Under the pieces are notes generated by a model that was not told the origin of the DNA, ran no database searches, and worked only from the letters and a program-made list of their open reading frames with translations. The position numbers were made by a program, and so were the translations under genes. A stretch of DNA of 64,000 nt from Candidatus Scalindua sediminis. Its GTDB lineage: Bacteria; Planctomycetota; Brocadiia; Brocadiales; Scalinduaceae. Location: positions 1 through 64,000 of the forward strand of contig VSDH01000007.1 of assembly GCA_008636105.1 (NCBI GenBank). The letters run 5' to 3'. Below, one piece after another: positions 18,965-57,099 of this stretch. Positions within the stretch are counted from its first letter, which is position 1. Each line of letters starts with the position of its first letter.

Positions 18965-19588
18965 ATGCCCAGGTTTTATCCTGTTTATTTGGATGTTAAA
19001 GGTAAGAGGTGTGTAATTGTTGGAGGAGGGGAGGTTGCATATCGAAAGGCATGCAGCCTGAGAGATGCGGGTGCAGACGTAATCGTGATCAGTCCTGATA
19101 CCTGCCCGGAAATGTCAAACGATAAGGGGCTTACGCTAATAAATAAAATCTATGATGAAAGTTGTTTAGATGGCGCCATGCTTGTTATTGCCGCAACAGA
19201 TGATGAGGAGGTTAACAAGAAGGTTTCGTCAGATGCAGGGAAAAGGAACATAATCATAAACGTAGTTGATCGCCCGGAACTTTGCTCATTTATCGTTCCT
19301 TCAACCGTAAACAGGGGAGACCTTTGTATAAGCATTTCAACTGGCGGAGCAAGTCCTGCCCTTGCCAGGAATATTAGAAAGGAATTGGAAGGTGTCTTTG
19401 GCTCAGAATATGGAGTATATATAAATTTATTAACCAGGATGCGTGATATTGCAATGTCTGATATAAAAGATGATACGAAGCGTAGAAAAATTCTCCAACG
19501 GTTGGCAGAAAAAGATATTCTGGAGATCGTAAAAACTAAAGGAACTGAAGAAGCAGAAGCAAAGATGAGAGAAATAATATTTCAATAA
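18965..19588 (+). CDS. Precorrin-2 dehydrogenase/ferrochelatase (Met8/CysG N-domain type)
   Basis: This 207-residue protein oxidises precorrin-2 to sirohydrochlorin and may insert iron to make sirohaem. 'GKRCVIVGGGEVAYRKACSL' is the NAD-binding loop and 'STGGASPALARNIRKELE' the chelatase-domain signature. The methyltransferase domain of full CysG is absent, which is normal for single-function homologues. It is the first gene of a rightward sulfur-related cluster and would supply sirohaem to the next gene. Confidence 0.92.
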   Translation: MPRFYPVYLDVKGKRCVIVGGGEVAYRKACSLRDAGADVIVISPDTCPEMSNDKGLTLINKIYDESCLDGAMLVIAATDDEEVNKKVSSDAGKRNIIINVVDRPELCSFIVPSTVNRGDLCISISTGGASPALARNIRKELEGVFGSEYGVYINLLTRMRDIAMSDIKDDTKRRKILQRLAEKDILEIVKTKGTEEAEAKMREIIFQ

Positions 19589-19766
19589 GGCCACGAGTTT
19601 ATTGAAATAAACCAGTTTAAACATTTCAAGCTTACTCACATTCTTTAATCCATTTGACATCGTTGTTCAATCTTTTTCTACTTGCAACATTTCACTCCTG
19701 GTGATAACATTTATTTATGCAGCTTTATAGAATCAATTCTATTATTTTAGTCTTAAGGAGCTCTTA

Positions 19767-20657
19767 ATGCCAGAAAGTACGGATGCTGAAAAGGTTGATA
19801 TAAATGAATTAAAATCTGGTGGATTTATAAAACAGAACCAGAAAGATCTTTTTACGGTTCGCTTACGGGTGCCTGGTGGCAGACTTGATATTGACAAGAT
19901 GATCAAGATTGCCGCAGTCGCAAAGAAATATAGCAGAATGGGTTATTGTCATCTTAGTCTCAGGCAAGCTGTTGAGATTATTGGAGTACATATAGATGAT
20001 TTTGATGCCCTGGTAAAGGAGTTAGCGGAATTTGGACAGCCAGTTGCATCTTGTGGCCCTAGGGTTCGTGTCCCTACCGCTTGTGGTGGTTGTGAATATA
20101 ATCCTCACGGGATTATGGATACCCAGAAAAAGGCACTTGAGGTAGATGAAAAGTATTTTGGTATAAATTGCCATCATAAGTTTAAGATGGCATTTTCTGG
20201 ATGTCCGATCGATTGTAATAGAACAACGGAAATGGATTTGGGTTTTCAAGGTGTTGTGGAACCTGTATGGGAGGAAGACCCATGTACAGGGTGTACCCTA
20301 TGTGAAAAGGCATGTCTGGAAGGTGCTATAGTTGCTGCAGAAGATGGGAAGCCTATTTTTTATAGAGAAAAATGCGTGTATTGTGGAGATTGTATAAAGG
20401 CTTGTCCTACTGATGCATGGACGGCAAAACGAAAAGGCTGGGCAGTCCGTATAGGTGGAAAGCATGGGAGACACCCCAGAGAAGCAAACGACGTAATGTT
20501 GTTCTTGCCAGATGAAAAGGTGTTTGACTTTATTGAACAAACACTTGACTGGTATAAAAGAAATGGTAAGCGAGGGGAAAGGATAGGAACCACTATTGAT
20601 CGTATAGGGATCGAAAAGTACAGAAAGGAAGTTGCACGACCTTTTATTACTGCATAG
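19767..20657 (+). CDS. Sirohaem sulfite/nitrite reductase-like protein with ferredoxin domain
   Basis: This 296-residue protein has an N-terminal ferredoxin-like half ('FTVRLRVPGGRLDIDKM') and a sirohaem/[4Fe-4S] region with C106-x2-C109 and C146-x3-C150 ('SGCPIDCNR'). Two 4Fe-4S ferredoxin motifs follow ('CTGCTLCEKAC' and 'CVYCGDCIKACP'). The order resembles AsrC/DsrA-type reductases. The sirohaem synthase upstream and DsrE, TusA downstream point to sulfite reduction for assimilation. The first cysteine pair spacing is not the textbook C-x5-C, so nitrite or another substrate remains possible. Confidence 0.8.
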   Translation: MPESTDAEKVDINELKSGGFIKQNQKDLFTVRLRVPGGRLDIDKMIKIAAVAKKYSRMGYCHLSLRQAVEIIGVHIDDFDALVKELAEFGQPVASCGPRVRVPTACGGCEYNPHGIMDTQKKALEVDEKYFGINCHHKFKMAFSGCPIDCNRTTEMDLGFQGVVEPVWEEDPCTGCTLCEKACLEGAIVAAEDGKPIFYREKCVYCGDCIKACPTDAWTAKRKGWAVRIGGKHGRHPREANDVMLFLPDEKVFDFIEQTLDWYKRNGKRGERIGTTIDRIGIEKYRKEVARPFITA

Positions 20658-21074
20658 ATGAAAGAGAAAAAATTTATACTTTTTCTTCATAGTGGTAGTT
20701 ACGATAAGTTATATCAAGCCGTGATGTTAGCCACCACGGCGGCCTCTATGGGGAGTAAGGTTTATATTTTTTTATTCTTTTGGGCGCTTGAGAAATTCGT
20801 AAATGATACGCTCGATGAGATTGAATTCCCTGCTGGAAGTCAGGACGAACATAAACAACTATTAGAAGCAATACCACAAGGAAGTTCAAATATGCTAAGG
20901 GAATTATTAGATGAAGTAAGCAAGATGGGAAATCTAAAAATCTATGCATGCAGTGGTGCTGTAAAGTTGATGGAACTAGATGAGGAGTTGGTAAAAACCA
21001 AGGTTAATGATATTATAGGGTTGCCTACAATGTTGAAAATGGCTGAAGGTGCTGAGACACAGCTCTTTATTTAG
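20658..21074 (+). CDS. DsrE-like sulfur relay protein
   Basis: This 138-residue DsrE/DrsE-fold protein has 'LFLHSGSYDKLYQAVMLATT' as the first strand-helix and 'KIYACSGAVKLM' carrying the likely sulfur-accepting cysteine. Its ATG follows the reductase stop directly, with no gap, so the two are translated together. It probably passes persulfide between the reductase, TusA and the JAMM-processed carrier. Confidence 0.82.
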   Translation: MKEKKFILFLHSGSYDKLYQAVMLATTAASMGSKVYIFLFFWALEKFVNDTLDEIEFPAGSQDEHKQLLEAIPQGSSNMLRELLDEVSKMGNLKIYACSGAVKLMELDEELVKTKVNDIIGLPTMLKMAEGAETQLFI

Positions 21075-21119
21075 AGGGTGGGGAACCTTTAATAGTAAAT
21101 TATTTTTTTAAAGAAAATT

Positions 21120-21794
21120 GTGATTTATATTAATCTACATTTAATCAACAGGATGCTAAAAGAGGCAAAGATTGCTTATCCTTACGAATGTTGTGGTTTA
21201 CTTGTAGGTAATAGTGATAATTCCAGGAAAGTAGTACATAAAATTTATCCGGTTGAAAATAAGAATAAGGTGAGAGCAGTGGATAGATATGAAATAGACT
21301 CAAAAGAGTTTGATGAGATAGATCGAGAGGCAACAAAAAAGGGGTTGAACATAATAGGTATATATCATTCACACCCTGACCATCCCGCGGCTCCATCAGC
21401 ATTTGATAAAGAATGTGCCAATGCATGGAGAGAATATTCATACATAATAATATCTGTTAAAAACGGAAAAGAAGAGGAACTGAAATCCTGGTGTTTTGAT
21501 TCTAAAAAGCAGGAGGTTGAGGAAGAAGAATTAAAAATAAAAAGACTCAACTTTATAATAGGTCTGTCGTTTATAGCATTTGGCTTTATTATTTATTTCT
21601 GCATGCCTTTGATATTTTTACTTCCTTTGTCCGTGAAATTAAAGACTAGTTCGGCTTACATAACCTATCTTTCTAGTTGGGGTTTAACAGGTATAGGTAT
21701 TGGTTTTGCTGGTAAGGAAGGTTATGAGTACATAAAGCAAGAGGTGTTAAAAGGTTTTTTGAGAAAAATAATAGGTAAAAATAAAAATGAGTGA
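21120..21794 (+). CDS. JAMM/MPN metalloprotease with two membrane helices
   Basis: This 224-residue protein starts at GTG 21120. The zinc motif is complete: 'IGIYHSHPDHPAAPSAFD' gives HxHx(10)D, with an upstream glutamate in 'YPYECCGLLVG'. Bacterial JAMM proteins of this type (Mec+-like) release cysteine or the carrier from ThiS/CysO-type sulfur carriers. A C-terminal pair of hydrophobic segments (about residues 145-170 and 180-200) anchors this one, which is unusual. No ThiS-like carrier is visible nearby. Overlaps tusA by eight bases. Confidence 0.85.
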   Translation: MIYINLHLINRMLKEAKIAYPYECCGLLVGNSDNSRKVVHKIYPVENKNKVRAVDRYEIDSKEFDEIDREATKKGLNIIGIYHSHPDHPAAPSAFDKECANAWREYSYIIISVKNGKEEELKSWCFDSKKQEVEEEELKIKRLNFIIGLSFIAFGFIIYFCMPLIFLLPLSVKLKTSSAYITYLSSWGLTGIGIGFAGKEGYEYIKQEVLKGFLRKIIGKNKNE

Positions 21795-22026
21795 AAATGT
21801 AGCAGATGAAAAGATTGATTTAAGAGGAGTTCTTTGCCCAATTAATTTTGTAAAAACAAAATTAAAGCTGGAGATGATGGAAAACGAACAGGTCTTGGAA
21901 GTAACCCTCGACGATGGAGAAGCAATGAGGAATGTTCCAAGGAGTATAAAGGAAGAGGGGCATAAAATTATAAAGGTTGAAAAACTCGATGGAGGGTACA
22001 AATTATTTATTAAAAAGAGTCAATAA
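21787..22026 (+). CDS. tusA: TusA/SirA-type sulfur carrier
   Basis: This 79-residue protein contains 'KIDLRGVLCPINFVKTKLKL', whose CP motif carries the persulfide cysteine. The family fold is complete. It is the last gene of the sulfur cluster and overlaps the JAMM gene. With DsrE it would move sulfur to biosynthetic acceptors. 'gene_symbol' is by family, not by proven orthology. Confidence 0.88.
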   Translation: MSENVADEKIDLRGVLCPINFVKTKLKLEMMENEQVLEVTLDDGEAMRNVPRSIKEEGHKIIKVEKLDGGYKLFIKKSQ

Positions 22027-49046: not shown

Positions 49047-49934
49047 ATGAAGACTATTACTTTTTACGCGCCAAGTATAAAACGTTATGAGACTACGGAA
49101 TTGGCGCAGGAAAATCATTATAATTTCATACCTGTTAGCATTACGGGTACTCAGTGTGCATTAGACTGTGACCATTGTAAGGGCCAACTCTTGAAGCACA
49201 TGAAATCAGTATCCGACCCGGAATCCCTGTTCAAGGTTTGTACTGATCTTACAAGGAAGAATGCTAAAGGAGTCCTTATTTCGGGTGGTTGTGATTCTGC
49301 CGGAAAGGTTCCGCTTACAGATTTTTATGAACAAATTCACAGAGTAAAAAACGAGTTGGGATTGAAGGTTGTTGTTCATACCGGAATTGTGGATGATGAA
49401 ATGGCTAAGGGTCTCAGTTACAGCGAGGTTGACAGTGCATTGTTTGACGTAATCGGGGATGATCATACTATTAAGGAGGTTTATCACTCAGGTGTTACCG
49501 TGGAAGATTATGAGAAATCACTATACTATCTTAATAAGTATTGTGTTCCTGTAGTACCGCATATCGTTATAGGTCTCAATTACGGCAGATTGATTGGAGA
49601 GTATAATGCCCTGGAAATAATTGCAAAGTACAAAATTAAATCTTTGGTTTTGGTAATTCTAACTCCTTTTATGAATACTCCAATGCAAGACGTCATCCCT
49701 CCATCTATTGATGATGTAGAAAAAGTCTTCTCGAGGGCTAGAGAAATTATAACTGAGAGTCCTGTTATACTGGGTTGTGCCAGACCTATGGGAGAATATA
49801 AAATAAAGGTGGACAGGTTGGCAGTGGATTATAGCTTTGATGGAATTGCTTTCCCCTCGGATGGGATTGTTTCATATGCCCGGAAAAAGGAACTTAAACC
49901 TCTTTTTACTGAAACATGTTGTGGCGTTATATAG
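49047..49934 (+). CDS. lipS2: Radical SAM protein, probable lipoyl synthase component LipS2
   Basis: This 295-residue protein contains 'CALDCDHC', a C-x3-C-x2-C cluster for SAM cleavage, and further cysteines at the end ('LFTETCCGVI'). Together with the radical SAM gene at 51093 and the lipoate ligase between, the layout fits the LipS1/LipS2 lipoyl synthase pair, two proteins replacing LipA. The assignment to LipS2 rests on size and context, so treat the letter as tentative. The start has no strong ribosome site. It overlaps the ligase gene by 19 bases. Confidence 0.7.
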   Translation: MKTITFYAPSIKRYETTELAQENHYNFIPVSITGTQCALDCDHCKGQLLKHMKSVSDPESLFKVCTDLTRKNAKGVLISGGCDSAGKVPLTDFYEQIHRVKNELGLKVVVHTGIVDDEMAKGLSYSEVDSALFDVIGDDHTIKEVYHSGVTVEDYEKSLYYLNKYCVPVVPHIVIGLNYGRLIGEYNALEIIAKYKIKSLVLVILTPFMNTPMQDVIPPSIDDVEKVFSRAREIITESPVILGCARPMGEYKIKVDRLAVDYSFDGIAFPSDGIVSYARKKELKPLFTETCCGVI

Positions 49935-51013
49935 AAAATGATTCTGTCCCTGCAAGCCTCGGTTTGGCAACAGACGAGTATTTAGCCGATACACATATAC
50001 CTGACCATTCTAATTACGGTCATATCTTGAGACTTTATACGTATAGAGACCACTGCGTTGTTCTGGGTAGATTTCAAGATGCAGAATCAGAGGTTAATCT
50101 TCCGGAATGTAAAAGGTTGGGAGTTGAAGTCAATAGACGTATAACTGGTGGTGGGACGATTATTATGGGACGTAACCAGCTGGGAGTTGCCATAATTATT
50201 CCACCCGGGGGTGCGAATGGTTCGAGAAAAAACAATGTACATTTCTCAACAAGGAAAATTTTTGAAGATTATGCCAGGGGAATAATTGAGGCGTTATCAT
50301 TACTGGGAATACAGTCTGAGTTCAGGCAAAAGAACGACATCCTTGTTAAAGGGAAAAAGATCGCAGGATTGGCTGCGTGTGTGCAAGAAAACGGCAATGC
50401 GTTATTTCATGCCAGTATATTGTTAGACATCGATACCAGGCTTATGGCCAGCGTGTTAAAAATACCTTTTGAGAAGATATCGGATAAAGAAATCACAGAA
50501 GTGGATGATAGGCTCACTACCGTGAATAGGGAAAGTAAAGAAAAGGTGACAATTGATAAGTTGAAAAGATTCTTAAAAACAGGATTTGAAAATGCATTTC
50601 AGATGAAGCTGCATAATATACTATTAACTGATTCTGAGATTTCTGGTATTAAGACCCTTGAAAGGAAGAGGTATTTGACAGATGAATGGATATATCAGAA
50701 GTCATTGATATCCAGCGAAACGACGGCAGTAAGGAAAAAGACTAAGGCCGGTATGATAAACGTCCACATGGCAGTTATGAATAATGTTATAAAAGATATT
50801 ATCATTACGGGTGATTTTTTTTCTACCACTGAATTTGTATCTGCCCTTGAGCGAAGATTGAGATGGAAGGCGATTGATAGAGAAGTTATAGCAAAGGTTA
50901 TCAAAGGTACATGGTCATTTTCTCCGGATTCAATTTTGGAACTGAATCCGGAAATACTGACCGACTGTATATTAGAAGGCGGAAATTCACCACGGAAAAA
51001 ATTAAGGAATTGA
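49916..51013 (+). CDS. Lipoate-protein ligase, LplA/sLpl(AB)-like
   Basis: This 365-residue protein has the ligase core 'RRITGGGTIIMG', 'KNDILVKGKKIAGLAA' with the catalytic lysine, and a C-terminal accessory domain of ~100 residues ('KAGMINVHMAVMNNVIKDII'). Both A and B parts are therefore in one protein. It would attach octanoate or lipoate to carrier proteins, which the adjacent radical SAM pair then modifies. No lipoyl carrier (GcvH/LbpA) is in the window. Confidence 0.82.
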   Translation: MLWRYIENDSVPASLGLATDEYLADTHIPDHSNYGHILRLYTYRDHCVVLGRFQDAESEVNLPECKRLGVEVNRRITGGGTIIMGRNQLGVAIIIPPGGANGSRKNNVHFSTRKIFEDYARGIIEALSLLGIQSEFRQKNDILVKGKKIAGLAACVQENGNALFHASILLDIDTRLMASVLKIPFEKISDKEITEVDDRLTTVNRESKEKVTIDKLKRFLKTGFENAFQMKLHNILLTDSEISGIKTLERKRYLTDEWIYQKSLISSETTAVRKKTKAGMINVHMAVMNNVIKDIIITGDFFSTTEFVSALERRLRWKAIDREVIAKVIKGTWSFSPDSILELNPEILTDCILEGGNSPRKKLRN

Positions 51014-51035
51014 GGAATTATTTGACAGGTTTCCT

Positions 51036-51053
51036 GGAGGTCTGAAGACCTCC
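51036..51053. repeat. Hairpin between ligase and lipS1
   Basis: GGAGGTCT pairs with AGACCTCC around two bases, in the 79-bp gap. There is no T-run, so it is a dispersed repeat or processing site rather than a terminator. Confidence 0.6.
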
Positions 51054-51092
51054 GCTACGTGTGAATGATTATTTATAACAAAATAACATTTG

Positions 51093-52187
51093 ATGGTGGC
51101 TATATTGGAACAAAATCATAATAAAACTATATCAAACCCCGAATACATTAAAACAAGCCTTGCCTCTGCAATTGGATTGAGATTTAGGTCCGGAAGGTTT
51201 TATCGTGATGCAAAACCCCTTTGCATCAACTTGCTCCTGAGCTATCCTGATAATTGCTACGCCAATTGTGCATATTGTGGACTCGCAAGGTCAAGGCCAC
51301 AGAATAATGGAGAAAAATCTTTTATCAGAGTAGATTGGCCGGTCTTAAAGACGGAAGACGTTATTGAAAGGATAGAAAGGTATCAATCAAACATAAGGCG
51401 TGTTTGCGTATCTATGGTTACACATAAAAATGCGGTTAGTGATACTTTTAGTATTACTAAACAAATAGCGCAATGTTGTCACTCGCCAATTTCTGTCCTT
51501 ATAACACCCAACCTCATGAACAAGGAAGATCTCGTGAGACTAAAAGAAATAGGGGCTGACACTATAGGCATAGGACTGGATGCAGCTTCCAAGAGGGTTT
51601 TTGAATTAACGAGAGGTAAAAAAGTAAATGGAGGCTTAGTGTGGGCAAAATATTGGGAAGTATTAGAAGATGCAGTTGACGTATTCGGTAGAGAGAAGAT
51701 AAGTTGCCATATAATGGTTGGAATAGGTGAAACAGATAGTGAACTTGTTGAAATATTTTTCAAACTTCGGGAATGTGGCGCCCTGGCACATCTATTTTCA
51801 TTCTACCCTGAACCTGATTCTACTATGTCTCTAAGGAATAGACCTTCTTTGAGGAGATTTCGAAGGATACAATTAGTTCGGTATCTGATAGAAAACGAAA
51901 TAATAAAAGAGAAACATTTATTGTGTGACGGAAAAGGGAAAATCAGCAAAGTCTTAACAAATAATGATATAATAAATAGTATTATTGAAAGTGGTAAACC
52001 TTTTATAACAGGGGGGTGTGAAGGTAAAAATGGTGAGATTGGTTGTAATAGACCCTTTGGAAGCTACAGACCCGGCGAACCGTTTCGCGACTTCCCTTTT
52101 CAACCGGGATCAGACGATATTCTCAGGATTAGGAAAGAATCTAAATTAGATGAAATAATTTGTTTTGAATGTAATCTGGTATCTTAA
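51093..52187 (+). CDS. lipS1: Radical SAM protein, probable lipoyl synthase component LipS1 (BioB-like)
   Basis: This ~364-residue protein has 'CYANCAYCGLARSRP' for the SAM cluster, a BioB-like barrel, and extra cysteines near the end ('CEGKNGEIGC', 'ICFECNLVS') suitable for an auxiliary Fe-S cluster that donates sulfur. ATG 51093 or TTG 51090 are the starts. It follows the ligase and precedes, by one base, the DsrE-like gene. Assignment as LipS1 is from size, BioB likeness and context. Confidence 0.7.
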   Translation: MVAILEQNHNKTISNPEYIKTSLASAIGLRFRSGRFYRDAKPLCINLLLSYPDNCYANCAYCGLARSRPQNNGEKSFIRVDWPVLKTEDVIERIERYQSNIRRVCVSMVTHKNAVSDTFSITKQIAQCCHSPISVLITPNLMNKEDLVRLKEIGADTIGIGLDAASKRVFELTRGKKVNGGLVWAKYWEVLEDAVDVFGREKISCHIMVGIGETDSELVEIFFKLRECGALAHLFSFYPEPDSTMSLRNRPSLRRFRRIQLVRYLIENEIIKEKHLLCDGKGKISKVLTNNDIINSIIESGKPFITGGCEGKNGEIGCNRPFGSYRPGEPFRDFPFQPGSDDILRIRKESKLDEIICFECNLVS

Positions 52188-52496
52188 ATGATCAAAAAGC
52201 TGGGTATATTACTTACTACAAGTACTGAGAGTGAGAATACGCATACTGTCGTAAAGCTTACTGAGGCTGCAATTAATGAAGGTGTGGAGGTTGACATATT
52301 CCTCATGTGTGATGGAGTCTATCACTTAAATCATGAGGAACTTAAAGGATTAGCAGATAAAGGTGCACGTGTTGTGGTTTGTGCTCACAATGCAATTGAA
52401 AGAAAGGTTGATAAAAAGGATTTTGCCCTGTGGGGTAGTCAATATGATTTAGCTTGTATGGTCAAGGAATGCGACAGGTTCCTTGCATTTAATTAA
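52188..52496 (+). CDS. DsrE-like sulfur transfer protein
   Basis: This 102-residue protein of the DsrE/TusD fold has 'GILLTTSTESENTHTVVKLT' and C65 in 'RVVVCAHNAIER', the place of the DsrE active cysteine. Its ATG directly follows the radical SAM stop codon, so coupling is tight. With the next two genes it makes an E-F-H set that could deliver sulfur for lipoate formation. Confidence 0.8.
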   Translation: MIKKLGILLTTSTESENTHTVVKLTEAAINEGVEVDIFLMCDGVYHLNHEELKGLADKGARVVVCAHNAIERKVDKKDFALWGSQYDLACMVKECDRFLAFN

Positions 52497-52507
52497 GGAA
52501 GTCTAAT

Positions 52508-52855
52508 TTGAATGAAGTTGTCGTCGTAATTCGTAAGTCACCTTTTAATACAACTCTCAACTCCGAGATGTTGAGAATGTGTGTGGGGTTGACACTGGAT
52601 GAAAACAAGATTACGGTAGTATTTCTTGGTGACGGTGTATATTTAATGCTAGAAAATAAGCCTGAGCTAATAAATTCAGGAGTTATCCATAAACATATAG
52701 AAACTCTACAGCTTTTGAAGCATAAGCTTATTGTCGAGAAAGAAGTATTTGAAAAATTGGGGAAGGACAATATTAAATATGACGATGTGGAGATTATGAA
52801 TCAGTCTCAAATAGCAAAGGTTATCTCCACTGCGGACGTGGTTATTACGTGTTAA
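52508..52855 (+). CDS. DsrF/TusC-like protein
   Basis: This 115-residue protein has the strand-helix start 'VVVVIRKSPFNTTLNSEMLR' and 'VVFLGDGVYLML', typical of DsrF/TusC. It is probably the second subunit of a heterohexamer. It starts at TTG 52508, 11 bp after the DsrE-like gene. Only the C-terminal cysteine is obvious, in keeping with DsrF's structural role. Confidence 0.72.
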   Translation: MNEVVVVIRKSPFNTTLNSEMLRMCVGLTLDENKITVVFLGDGVYLMLENKPELINSGVIHKHIETLQLLKHKLIVEKEVFEKLGKDNIKYDDVEIMNQSQIAKVISTADVVITC

Positions 52856-52860
52856 AAATA

Positions 52861-53130
52861 ATGAAATTACTATTTATTGTAAAAGAAAAGAAAGATTTTA
52901 ATTTCTTATTAAGGATGTATGGAAAATCTCAAACAGGAATGGTCAATAAGATTACGATTCTTCTTATTCATGATGCTGTTTTAGTTGAATCGATTCCCAA
53001 TAATGATTTTAGATTATTTGCCTGTAATGATGATGTAGAAGCAAGAGGTGTAAATACATTATTCAATACCTTAGATTATGTACAAATGTTAAAGCTTATA
53101 GCTGATTGTGATAAGGTTATATGCTGGTAA
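52861..53130 (+). CDS. DsrH/TusB-like protein
   Basis: An 89-residue frame (ATG 52861; GTG 52849 would overlap the previous gene) has 'LFACNDDVEARGVNTLF', which matches the DxxARG signature of DsrH/TusB, and ends 'ADCDKVICW', as family members often do. It completes the E-F-H trio. It is the last gene before the chaperonin cluster, about 290 bp away. Confidence 0.75.
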   Translation: MKLLFIVKEKKDFNFLLRMYGKSQTGMVNKITILLIHDAVLVESIPNNDFRLFACNDDVEARGVNTLFNTLDYVQMLKLIADCDKVICW

Positions 53131-53417: not shown

Positions 53418-55103
53418 ATGGCAGCAAAGCAGTTATTGTTTAGAGAAGAAGCAAGATTGGCCATAAAAAGAGGAGTCTCAAAGCTAGCTAGCGCAGTTAA
53501 ATGTACATTAGGACCAAGGGGCAGAAATGCAATTCTTGATAAGGGATGGGGTGGTCCCACAATAACAAAGGATGGGGTAACGGTTGCAGAAGAGATAGAA
53601 CTGAGAGACCCATATGAGAATTTGGGTGCAAAACTGGTAAAGGAAGTGGCATCAAAGACAAGTGATGTTGCAGGGGACGGTACTACTACTGCAACGATAT
53701 TGGCTGAGGCTTTTTTCAATAATGGTTTAAAATGTGTTTCAGCAGGTGCGGATCCAATGGCACTTAATCGTGGGATGAAGGTAGCAGTTGACAAAGTGGT
53801 TGAAAAACTTGGGGACATGAGTAAGAAAGTAAAAGACCAGACAGAAATTGCTAATATCGCTGCTATTGCAGGCAATAATGATAGCGAAATAGGTAATATG
53901 ATTGCTAATGCAATGGAAAAAGTAGGTAAAGATGGTGTTATTACTGTTGAGGAAGGAAAAGCTCTTGGTACGGATGTAGAGATAGTTGAAGGTATGCAAT
54001 TTGATCGTGGATATCTATCACCTCATTTTGTAACTGACAAAGATAATATGAAGGTAGAACTGAAAGATGCTTATGTACTGATACATGAGGAAAAGATTTC
54101 TACTATTAAGGGAATTGTACCTTTGCTTGAAAAAATTGCAAAGGCTAAAAGGCCTCTTTTTATAATAGCAGAAGATATTGAAAGTGAAGCATTAGCTACC
54201 CTGGTCGTTAACAACCTTCGAGGCACTGTAACATGTGCTGCTGTTAAGGCACCAGGGTACGGAGATCGCAGAAAAGCAATGATGGACGATATTGCTATGC
54301 TTACAGGTGGTAAGGCTGTATTTAAAGATTTAGGAATACAGTTGGAAACTGTTGAGTTGAATGAACTCGGAACTGCAAGGAAAATTAATATAGATTCCGA
54401 AAATACAACTATTATTCAGGGTGGTGGTACCTCAAAAGCGATTAAGGGACGTATAGATCAGATAAAAGGGGAAATAGAGGGAACGACCTCTGACTACGAC
54501 CGTGAAAAATTACAAGAACGGCTGGCGAAATTGGCAGGCGGTGTAGCACAAATAAACGTCGGTGCATCAACGGAGACTGAAATGAAGGAAAAGAAGGCAC
54601 GTGTAGAGGACGCGTTACATGCTACTCGTGCAGCAATAGAAGAAGGTGTTTTACCGGGTGGTGGCATTGCATTGTTAAGAGCTTTGGAGGTATTAAATAA
54701 TCTTAAATTGAAAGACGACGAAAATATTGGTGTTGACATAATAAAGAATTCTCTTAGCGAACCTGCAAAACAGATAGCCAGAAATGCAGGATTAGAAGGT
54801 GCGATCGTAGTAAAAAAGATTTTAGCATCTAAAGATAAGGCTTTTGGTTACGATGCTGAGAGAGAAGTGTACTGTAATCTTCTTGAATCAGGTGTGATAG
54901 ATCCTACAAAAGTTACAAGGTGTGCATTACAAAACGCATTGAGTATCGCAGGAATACTTCTTACAAGTGATTGTCTTATTACCGAAATTCCTGGCAAGGA
55001 AGAAGGAATGATGCCACCGGGTGGTGGTATGCCTCCAGGAGGAATGGGAGGTATGGGAGGTATGGGTGGTATGGGAGGTATGGGAGGTATGGGTGGCATG
55101 TAA
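53418..55103 (+). CDS. groEL: Chaperonin GroEL, copy 1 (Gly-Gly-Met tail)
   Basis: This 561-residue protein folds other proteins in the cytoplasm. '[15 protein letters not shown]' is the ATP-binding loop with catalytic aspartate, and '[20 protein letters not shown]' is the GroEL signature. The tail is (GGM)n, as in E. coli. AAGGAGG precedes ATG 53418. A GGAAAT/ATTTCC palindrome at 53281-53295 may be an operator; no complete CIRCE element is visible. It precedes groES and a second groEL. Confidence 0.97.
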
Positions 55104-55164
55104 AACCCCATAAATTATAAATGAATATTTATTATGATTATTAGAACAAAAAGGAGGATTAGTT

Positions 55165-55452
55165 ATGGCAATTAGACCTTTAGATGATAGGGTTGTTGTT
55201 GAACCCCTGGAGGCAGAAGAAAAAACAGAAGGTGGAATTGTTTTACCTGACACTGCAAAAGAAAAACCTACAAAAGGAAAGGTAATTTCTGTAGGTGAAG
55301 GAAAACTTTTGGATAATGGCAGCAGAGCCAAAATTTTAGTAAAAAAGGGCGATCAAGTATTGTACGGCAAATATGCAGGATCAGAAATAACGGTTGGTGG
55401 AAAAGAATATCTTATTTTAAGAGAAAGTGATATATTGGCTAAAATTGAATAA
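55165..55452 (+). CDS. groES: Co-chaperonin GroES
   Basis: This 95-residue lid of the chaperonin has '[20 protein letters not shown]' (start) and a mobile loop '[14 protein letters not shown]'. It lies between the two groEL genes, 61 bp after groEL1 and 21 bp before groEL2, rather than first as in the common groES-groEL order. Confidence 0.97.
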
Positions 55453-55473
55453 TTAAGTTCAGGAGGTTTTATT

Positions 55474-57099
55474 ATGGCAGCAAAACAGCTTTTGTTTGAT
55501 GAAGAGGCAAGGCGTAGCATGAGAAGTGGGATAAAGAAATTAGCAGATGCTGTAAGGGTAACTATGGGTCCTACTGGCAGGAATCTGATCCTGGAAAAGA
55601 GTTTTGGTTCACCTACCGTTACAAAGGATGGTGTGACTGTAGCAAAAGAAGTAGAGTTAGGAGAACCCTTCGAAAATATGGGTGCAAAGATGGTTTGCGA
55701 AGTGGCTACTAAGACCAGTGATGTAGCTGGAGATGGTACAACGACCGCAACGATTCTGGCTGAAGCAATTTTTAATGAGGGTATAAAGAACGTTACCGCA
55801 GGTGCAAATCCCATGGCGTTAAAAAGGGGTATAGATAAGGCCGTAAAGGCAGTGGTTGAAGAAATGGAACGTTTAAGCAAAGAAGTCAAGGATAGATCAC
55901 AGATTGCCCAGGTCGGCACGATTTCAGCTAATAATGATTCTTCAATAGGAAATCTACTGGCAGATGCCATGGATAAAGTGGGTAAGGATGGCGTTATTAC
56001 GGTTGAAGAAGCTAAAAGTATTCAAACAACCTTAGATGTTGTTGAAGGAATGCAGTTTGACAAGGGATTTATCTCACCTTATTTTATAACAAACGCCCAA
56101 ACCATGGAAGTTGTCTTTGAAGACCCTTATATACTGATTCATGAAAAGAAAATTTCTAGTATGAAGGATATTCTTCCCCTTTTAGAGAAGATAGCAAGCA
56201 TTGGTAAACCCCTTTTAATCATCTCTGAGGAGATTGAGGGTGAGGCATTGGCTACGTTGGTCGTCAATAAATTACGAGGAGTTTTAAACTGTGCGGCTGT
56301 TAAGGCACCTGGTTTTGGTGACAGAAGAAAGGCCATGCTTGAAGACATCGCTATACTCACAGAAGGGCGCATGGTTTCAGAAGACATCGGGGTAAAATTA
56401 GAAACATTGGGACTTGAAGACCTTGGTCGAGCAAAACGAGTTACGATCGATAAAGATAATACTACAATAATTGAAGGAGCAGGAAAAAAGGCAGACATAA
56501 AGGGTAGAATTTCTCAAATCCGAAATCAAATTGAACAGAGTACATCTGATTATGATAAGGAGAAATTTCAGGAGAGACTTGCAAAACTTACAGGTGGTAT
56601 TGCAGTCATAAACGTAGGTGGTGCTACTGAAGCTGAGGTGAACGAAAGGAAGGCACTGGTTGAGGATGCCCTTCACGCTACAAGAGCAGCAGTAGAAGAA
56701 GGGATTATTCCAGGAGGCGGAGTTGCATTTATCAGGGTAATTCCAAAGATTGGAGAGATACGTAAGAAACTAAGGGGTGATGAAAAAGTAGGTGCTGATA
56801 TAATAGTAAAAGCCATTGAAGCTCCCTTAAGGCAGATTGCGTCTAACGCAGGTGAAGATGGGTCTGTAGTTGTAGAAGAGGTAAAAGAAAAAGGCACTAA
56901 TATAGGTTTTGATGCCAACACGTGTGAGTATGTAGATATGTTAGAAAAAGGGATAATTGATCCCACGAAAGTTGCACGTAGTGCTTTACAAAATGCAGCT
57001 AGCATAGCAGGATTAATGTTGACGACCGAAGTTATGGTTACAGAGTTAAAGGAAGGCGAGGATGAGGAAGAAGGCCCTGTTGCGGGAAGCGTATACTAA
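55474..57099 (+). CDS. groEL: Chaperonin GroEL, copy 2 (no Gly-Met tail)
   Basis: This 541-residue paralogue of copy 1 has the same ATP loop ('[15 protein letters not shown]') and signature ('[20 protein letters not shown]'). The end is acidic ('[17 protein letters not shown]') rather than GGM-rich, suggesting a changed cavity and substrate range. An AGGAGG site precedes ATG 55474. Followed by a strong terminator. Confidence 0.97.

Follow-up and report, generated by a model that had tools for sequence, protein, structure and literature searches.

We examined a 64,000-nucleotide (nt) stretch of DNA from Candidatus Scalindua sediminis (the window; contig C67 of its 2.96 Mb genome) for a locus that joins genes of lipoate synthesis to genes of a sulfur relay. 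At positions 49047–53130, six open reading frames (ORFs), all on the + strand, form the tightly spaced series lipS1–lpl–lipS2–dsrE–dsrF–dsrH, with hslVU on one side and groEL on the other (Table 1). The lipS1 and lpl frames overlap by 19 nt, a 76-nt gap holding a palindrome separates lpl from lipS2, dsrE begins right at the lipS2 stop codon (0 nt), dsrF follows 11 nt after dsrE, and dsrF and dsrH overlap by 7 nt or, if dsrH begins at its internal ATG, lie about 5 nt apart. These distances correct a preliminary description of the locus, which spoke of one-base or overlapping junctions after the dsr-like genes begin and of a 'fused' locus; no gene fusion is present. Candidatus Scalindua rubra has the same gene block (L133), again with groEL next to it.

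Table 1. Features of the lipS–dsrEFH locus, in window coordinates
Feature	Position	Strand	Basis or remark
lipS1, radical SAM lipoyl synthase subunit 1, 295 aa	49047..49934	+	NF053742 and conserved residues
lpl, lipoate/octanoate-protein ligase (LplA catalytic and LplB-type C-terminal domain), 365 aa	49916..51013	+	PF21948, PF10437
palindrome GGAGGTCTGAAGACCTCC in the lpl–lipS2 gap	51034..51058	+	18 nt; single copy within the window; no T run by eye
lipS2, radical SAM lipoyl synthase subunit 2; start TTG 51090 or ATG 51093	51090..52187	+	NF053743, six Cys
dsrE-type sulfurtransferase ('type A'), 102 aa, persulfide cysteine C65	52188..52496	+	PF02635, fold match
dsrF/tusC-type subunit, 115 aa, TTG start	52508..52855	+	TIGR03010, profile match to DsrF
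dsrH/tusB-type subunit, 93 aa from GTG, ATG 52861 likely; DDVEARG	52849..53130	+	TIGR03011, profile matches

The two radical S-adenosylmethionine (SAM) proteins are, on sequence evidence, LipS1 and LipS2, as first proposed, and they keep every cysteine shown to be important in the Thermococcus enzymes. LipS1 scores 248 bits against NF053742, above the NCBIfam equivalog cut-off of 230. Its residues C37/C41/C44 (CX3CX2C), H172, C244 (the GCARP cysteine) and C291–C292 are invariant in an alignment of nine sequences and are the equivalents of C27/31/34, H159, C230, C276 and C277, identified as key residues of Thermococcus kodakarensis LipS1 by mutation (PMC9585515). For LipS2, NF053743 is the best family at 209.8 bits, below an equivalog cut-off of 270 that is an annotation threshold rather than a property of the protein and that was reached in none of the 16 genomes searched, classical lipS1–lpl–lipS2/sHdr loci included; we assign the protein to LipS2 despite this score because its residues, its partner and its place in the tree fit. 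C56/C60/C63, C106, C310 and C319 are invariant among 32 divergent homologues from many phyla; the T. kodakarensis enzyme has CX3CX2C together with C85, C276 and C279 (PMC9585515). The CX8C spacing of the last pair, against CX2C in T. kodakarensis, was considered as a special trait and rejected, being seen in nearly all bacterial LipS2. Among known folds, HydE, BioB and those of lipoyl synthases are nearest to the predicted structure (predicted local distance difference test score (pLDDT) 80.9). We placed the window protein in an 82-row tree of LipS2, with support from the Shimodaira–Hasegawa-like approximate likelihood-ratio test (SH-aLRT); it groups (SH-aLRT 99) with that of S. rubra, to which it is 79% identical, inside a nine-row Brocadiales clade (100) that one Chloroflexota bin joins at 89, and 50 rows, sHdr-linked Planctomycetota among them, form a separate clade (100).

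The ligase encoded between the radical SAM genes is of the Lpl(AB) type suggested earlier, with LplA catalytic and LplB domains (PF21948, 141 bits; PF10437, 42 bits) as in sLpl(AB), and it matches lipoate ligases in the PDB with E values as low as 2.7e-32. The LplB domain is absent from two other LipS-linked ligases (L041, 842–1624, from a sister family, and L134, 2978–3793), which may be transferases instead of ligases. In S. rubra, lipS1 and lpl form a single ORF (L133, 5052–7058) from which the auxiliary-cluster cysteines are lost; this apparent fusion depends on a single additional A within a run just ahead of the CC codons and is probably a frameshift or an assembly error.

DsrEFH/TusBCD is an alpha2beta2gamma2 hexamer with persulfide transfer. 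The three genes behind lipS2 encode a trio that, by profile matches and predicted structure, is DsrEFH/TusBCD-like, with three consecutive subunits, a DsrE fold with its persulfide cysteine, and DsrF-type and DsrH-type partners. The window DsrE (hereafter type A) matches PF02635, and although its profile matched no PDB sequence, a fold search with the AlphaFold model (pLDDT 94) returned 2hy5_A, the DsrE of DsrEFH, as the top structural match. Its C65, already pointed out in the preliminary description together with the DxxARG motif of DsrH, is invariant in eight type-A sequences and equivalent to Cys78, which carries the persulfide in DsrE (PMC3397948). The DsrF/TusC-type subunit scores 45.9 bits against TIGR03010 (cut-off 94) and matches DsrF (2hy5_B) with an E value of 6e-10; the DsrH/TusB-type subunit scores 34.8 bits against TIGR03011 (cut-off 49), matches TM0979, DsrH (2hy5_C) and TusB (2d1p_C), and carries the conserved motif as DDVEARG. 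The trio differs from DsrEFH/TusBCD in its shorter DsrE, and no link to DsrC/TusE or DsrAB was seen. In the alignment, the window DsrH and most type-A DsrH have no cysteine in the N-terminal region of DsrH-Cys20, a residue that in Allochromatium vinosum is required in vivo and dispensable for transfer in vitro (PMC3397948). Because this counterpart is absent, we class the trio as DsrEFH/TusBCD-like and do not assign it to the Dsr system of A. vinosum.

Elsewhere in the genome, a canonical LipA is encoded (384 bits), which leaves the earlier view that LipS1 and LipS2 stand in for LipA without support here. Three GcvH-type proteins are also encoded. One of these, on contig C48, is the lipoate-binding protein (LbpA) of a second relay cluster, TusA–ThiF–DsrE–DsrF–DsrH–TusA–LbpA. 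LbpA proteins of this type (LbpA_B) form one clade beside the LbpA of sHdr loci and apart from GcvH (SH-aLRT 93; GcvH 98), and they keep the lipoyl lysine, K71. Sulfur oxidation through sHdr cannot proceed without LbpA, a protein that a dedicated ligase and not the canonical machinery modifies and that has two conserved cysteines not present in GcvH (PMC6067878); LbpA_B contains no cysteine in 11 of 11 sequences, and for this reason we class the C48 protein as LbpA-like and not as sHdr LbpA. Two CCG domains are found in a membrane protein of HdrDE/DsrMK/TfrB-like type that is encoded on contig C13, unlinked to the lipS locus. No sHdr cluster was found at the window locus, at L120 or in the joined clusters of relatives described below; in the window's genome, sHdr was rejected on a search for CCG proteins, the only HdrB–HdrA pair sitting on contig C14, and the HdrB of this pair has counterparts also in LipS-free relatives.

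These modules, which lie on separate contigs in the window's genome, are joined in its relatives. HdrDE, LbpA, LipS1, Lpl, LipS2 and type-A DsrEFH follow one another in a single stretch at L134, and the series DsrEFH–TusA–HdrDE–LbpA–LipS1, with a trio of a second type (type B), occurs in two others (G228 and G397; L271 and L039). One Chloroflexota bin carries type-B DsrEFH–HdrDE–LbpA–LipS1–Lpl on one contig (L270) and Lpl–LipS2–type-A DsrEFH–TusA–ThiF on another (L137). In a Dehalococcoidaceae bin (L140, 1–8677), the C-terminal end of a sulfite-reductase-like gene is followed by TusA, type-B DsrFH, TusA, TfrA, TfrB, LbpA, LipS1, Lpl and LipS2; here the position beside LbpA that an HdrDE-like protein holds elsewhere is taken by a TfrA/TfrB-like thiol:fumarate reductase pair, as would suit a partner of the dithiol/disulfide kind. 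LbpA_B is present in every tested genome with both LipS2 and type-A DsrE (G000, which is the window's own, G228, G206, G138 and the genomes of L133, L134, L135 and L137) and in the bin of L140; it was not found in G182 or the L138 genome, whose assemblies both break at lipS2.

The linkage of lipS2 to dsrEFH recurs in other genomes, as a neighbourhood survey of 80 lipS2 loci, one genome per species, showed. Type-A DsrEFH accompanies lipS2 at five of these, directly downstream at four and with two small genes between at one (G206); sHdr subunits are found at 22 and an LbpA-like protein at 52. The linkage is conserved in the Scalindua/Brocadiales lineage and was also seen in one Chloroflexota bin, and it maps to a single change, that is, one origin, on the LipS2 tree. 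Thus, neither of the outcomes that the preliminary description had named as refuting it, radical SAM proteins of unrelated families or a lack of dsrEFH beside lipS elsewhere, was observed. Among the 62 genomes of the order, LipS2 is present in nine, type-A DsrE in eight, both in seven, LipS2 only in two (both contigs end at lipS2), DsrE only in one and neither in 52, giving a Fisher p value of 5.7e-7 that is inflated by shared ancestry, and within the order, only lineages that bear lipS were found to have either type of DsrEFH. An 826-residue polyferredoxin behind type-A DsrEFH (G228) and M16 peptidases (G206, G138, G393 and L135) were dropped as candidate members of the system, not being conserved across the set. 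The same distribution makes it very improbable that the trio serves tRNA 2-thiolation, as an ordinary TusBCD co-transcribed by happenstance: its structural likeness to TusBCD/DsrEFH would fit, but the trio is scattered and tied to LipS and LbpA, is missing in most Brocadiales, which presumably still thiolate tRNA, and is one of two per genome.

A search with the type-A DsrE profile over 400 Chloroflexota genomes returned two, G454 and G546, each with one cluster, ThiF–TusA–DsrEFH–TusA–HdrE–HdrD–LbpA_B–DsrEFH, well inside its contig and with the type-B trio first and the type-A trio last. LipS2 was not detected in either genome; both are metagenome-assembled genomes (MAGs), so this absence is provisional. 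The position of the type-A trio directly behind LbpA in these LipS2-free genomes ties it to an LbpA relay and not to LipS. It also bears on the idea put forward in the preliminary description, that the trio delivers persulfide to LipS1 and LipS2 and so supplies or rebuilds their sacrificial auxiliary [4Fe-4S] clusters for repeated turnover. That dsrE begins directly at the lipS2 stop codon, that type-A DsrEFH and LipS2 are mostly found together within the order, and that the sulfur comes from the clusters of the LipS enzymes, which achieve few turnovers without regeneration (PMC9585515), would all agree with such a role. The trio is missing, however, at 64 of the 69 lipS2 loci with enough downstream sequence, many of which adjoin classical sHdr clusters, it lies beside LbpA in the two genomes just described, and distant type-A sets occur with ThiF, TusA and a JAMM protease (L296) or with JAMM alone (L294). 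We therefore regard specific feeding of the LipS clusters as improbable and as a weaker explanation than the LbpA relay.

We favour, with a probability of roughly 60%, the reading that the trio serves a sulfur relay built on LbpA and a membrane-bound CCG disulfide reductase, and that LipS1, Lpl and LipS2 mature the LbpA encoded on C48. The system would then have two parts, of which the locus is one. Its LipS1, Lpl and LipS2 would build the lipoyl group on the dedicated GcvH-like LbpA, and canonical LipA would probably serve the ordinary GcvH proteins. Type-A DsrEFH would carry persulfide on C65 of DsrE, TusA and the two DsrEFH complexes would pass on sulfane sulfur, and the dihydrolipoyl/lipoyl arm of LbpA would accept or release it. 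The membrane DsrMK/HdrDE/TfrB-like CCG iron–sulfur protein may reoxidise or re-reduce the lipoyl disulfide against the quinone pool. We infer LbpA as the LipS substrate, the order of the sulfur hand-offs and the role of the CCG protein; sulfane oxidation, sulfur reduction and assimilation are candidate directions of the relay.

Several observations weigh against this reading. Since lipS and lbpA do not share a contig in the window's genome, they are paired as enzyme and substrate by comparison only, and LbpA_B is without the two cysteines that mark sHdr LbpA. The type-A trio falls below the NCBIfam cut-offs for TusB, TusC and TusD. G454 and G546 must lipoylate LbpA by another route, and no terminal enzyme has been identified for the relay.

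A serious rival, although we think it unlikely, is an assimilatory relay in which DsrEFH and TusA pass sulfur to a ThiF-activated thiocarboxylate carrier that works with a JAMM protease, in a cysteine synthesis like that of CysO/CysM/Mec, for which LbpA and the CCG protein would serve as reductants. ThiF is encoded in the C48 cluster, and JAMM adjoins type-A DsrEFH at L294 and L296. Read by eye, two Chloroflexota loci (L292 and L293) encode a ThiF to whose N terminus a MoaD/ThiS-like stretch is fused, and in L293 the DsrEFH/LbpA cluster also contains a CysM-like gene; together these hint at thiocarboxylate cysteine synthesis. Also consistent with assimilation are the sulfite-reductase-like gene upstream in L140 and a group of genes in the window itself (18965–22026) for a precorrin-2 dehydrogenase-like protein (SirC), a small siroheme sulfite reductase-like protein, a DsrE2-like protein, a JAMM protease and TusA. 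By contrast, no MoaD/ThiS-like carrier was noticed beside ThiF in the window's genome, the membrane CCG protein points to quinone-linked energy metabolism, and clusters of the sulfite reductase/JAMM type are also found in LipS-free relatives.

The DsrE2-like and TusA pair of this group recurs in LipS-free genomes of the Scalindua family (L070, L071 and L072). Genes for LarE-like sulfur transferases lie near distant type-A DsrE and ThiF (L296 and L300), in L296 also near TusA and JAMM. At L297 (8266–9801, Chloroflexota), type-B DsrEFH and TusA adjoin a SelD-like gene, with neither LbpA_B nor HdrDE nearby. Directly downstream of the lipS–dsrEFH locus, the window carries one groES flanked by two groEL paralogues (53418–57099).

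Compared with known systems, the locus shares with the sLpl(AB)–LipS1/S2 pathway of T. kodakarensis, Thioalkalivibrio and Hyphomicrobium the order lipS1–lpl–lipS2, the radical SAM and auxiliary-cluster cysteines, the two-domain ligase and a coexisting LipA. It differs in a LipS2 that lies in a clade apart from sHdr-linked LipS2 and below the NCBIfam cut-off, and in having dsrEFH after lipS2 and no lipT noted. With sHdr–LbpA oxidation, in which TusA and DsrE3-type proteins act as carriers, the proposed system has in common LbpA, dedicated LipS and Lpl, TusA and DsrE-family sulfurtransferases in one neighbourhood, and a CCG protein; here, however, no sHdr cluster was found, LbpA is without the two cysteines, full DsrEFH trios are present in duplicate, and the partner is a membrane HdrDE/DsrMK-like or TfrAB-like protein, with ThiF in addition. 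The preliminary description had regarded the operon link as new. Clusters of LipS, LbpA and DsrE/TusA have been published for sHdr sulfur oxidizers (PMC6067878, PMC10332631), so the link in itself is not new, whereas a full DsrEFH without sHdr seems to be. No paper combining LipS1 and DsrEFH, and none on lipoate in S. rubra, was found in the open-access literature, and as far as that literature shows, a variant of the LbpA relay that lacks sHdr and has DsrEFH trios in two full sets seems not to have been described.

sHdr is present in only 42% of bacteria that have LipS1/S2 (PMC10332631), which leaves the role of the pathway in the remaining bacteria open. A relay of the kind proposed here, in which LbpA works with two DsrEFH trios and a membrane CCG protein, is a concrete candidate for such a role. 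More tentatively, and at somewhat less than even odds, we propose that Planctomycetota of the Scalindua lineage and some Chloroflexota have a further LbpA-dependent, sHdr-independent sulfur pathway, in which a cysteine-free, lipoylated LbpA would trade sulfane sulfur with TusA and two DsrEFH complexes and a DsrMK/HdrDE-like or TfrAB-like CCG enzyme of the membrane would turn over its lipoyl disulfide. This would extend the sulfur-handling role of lipoate beyond sHdr, through genes that are open to in vitro testing, in a lineage close to the anammox bacteria about whose sulfur metabolism little is known.

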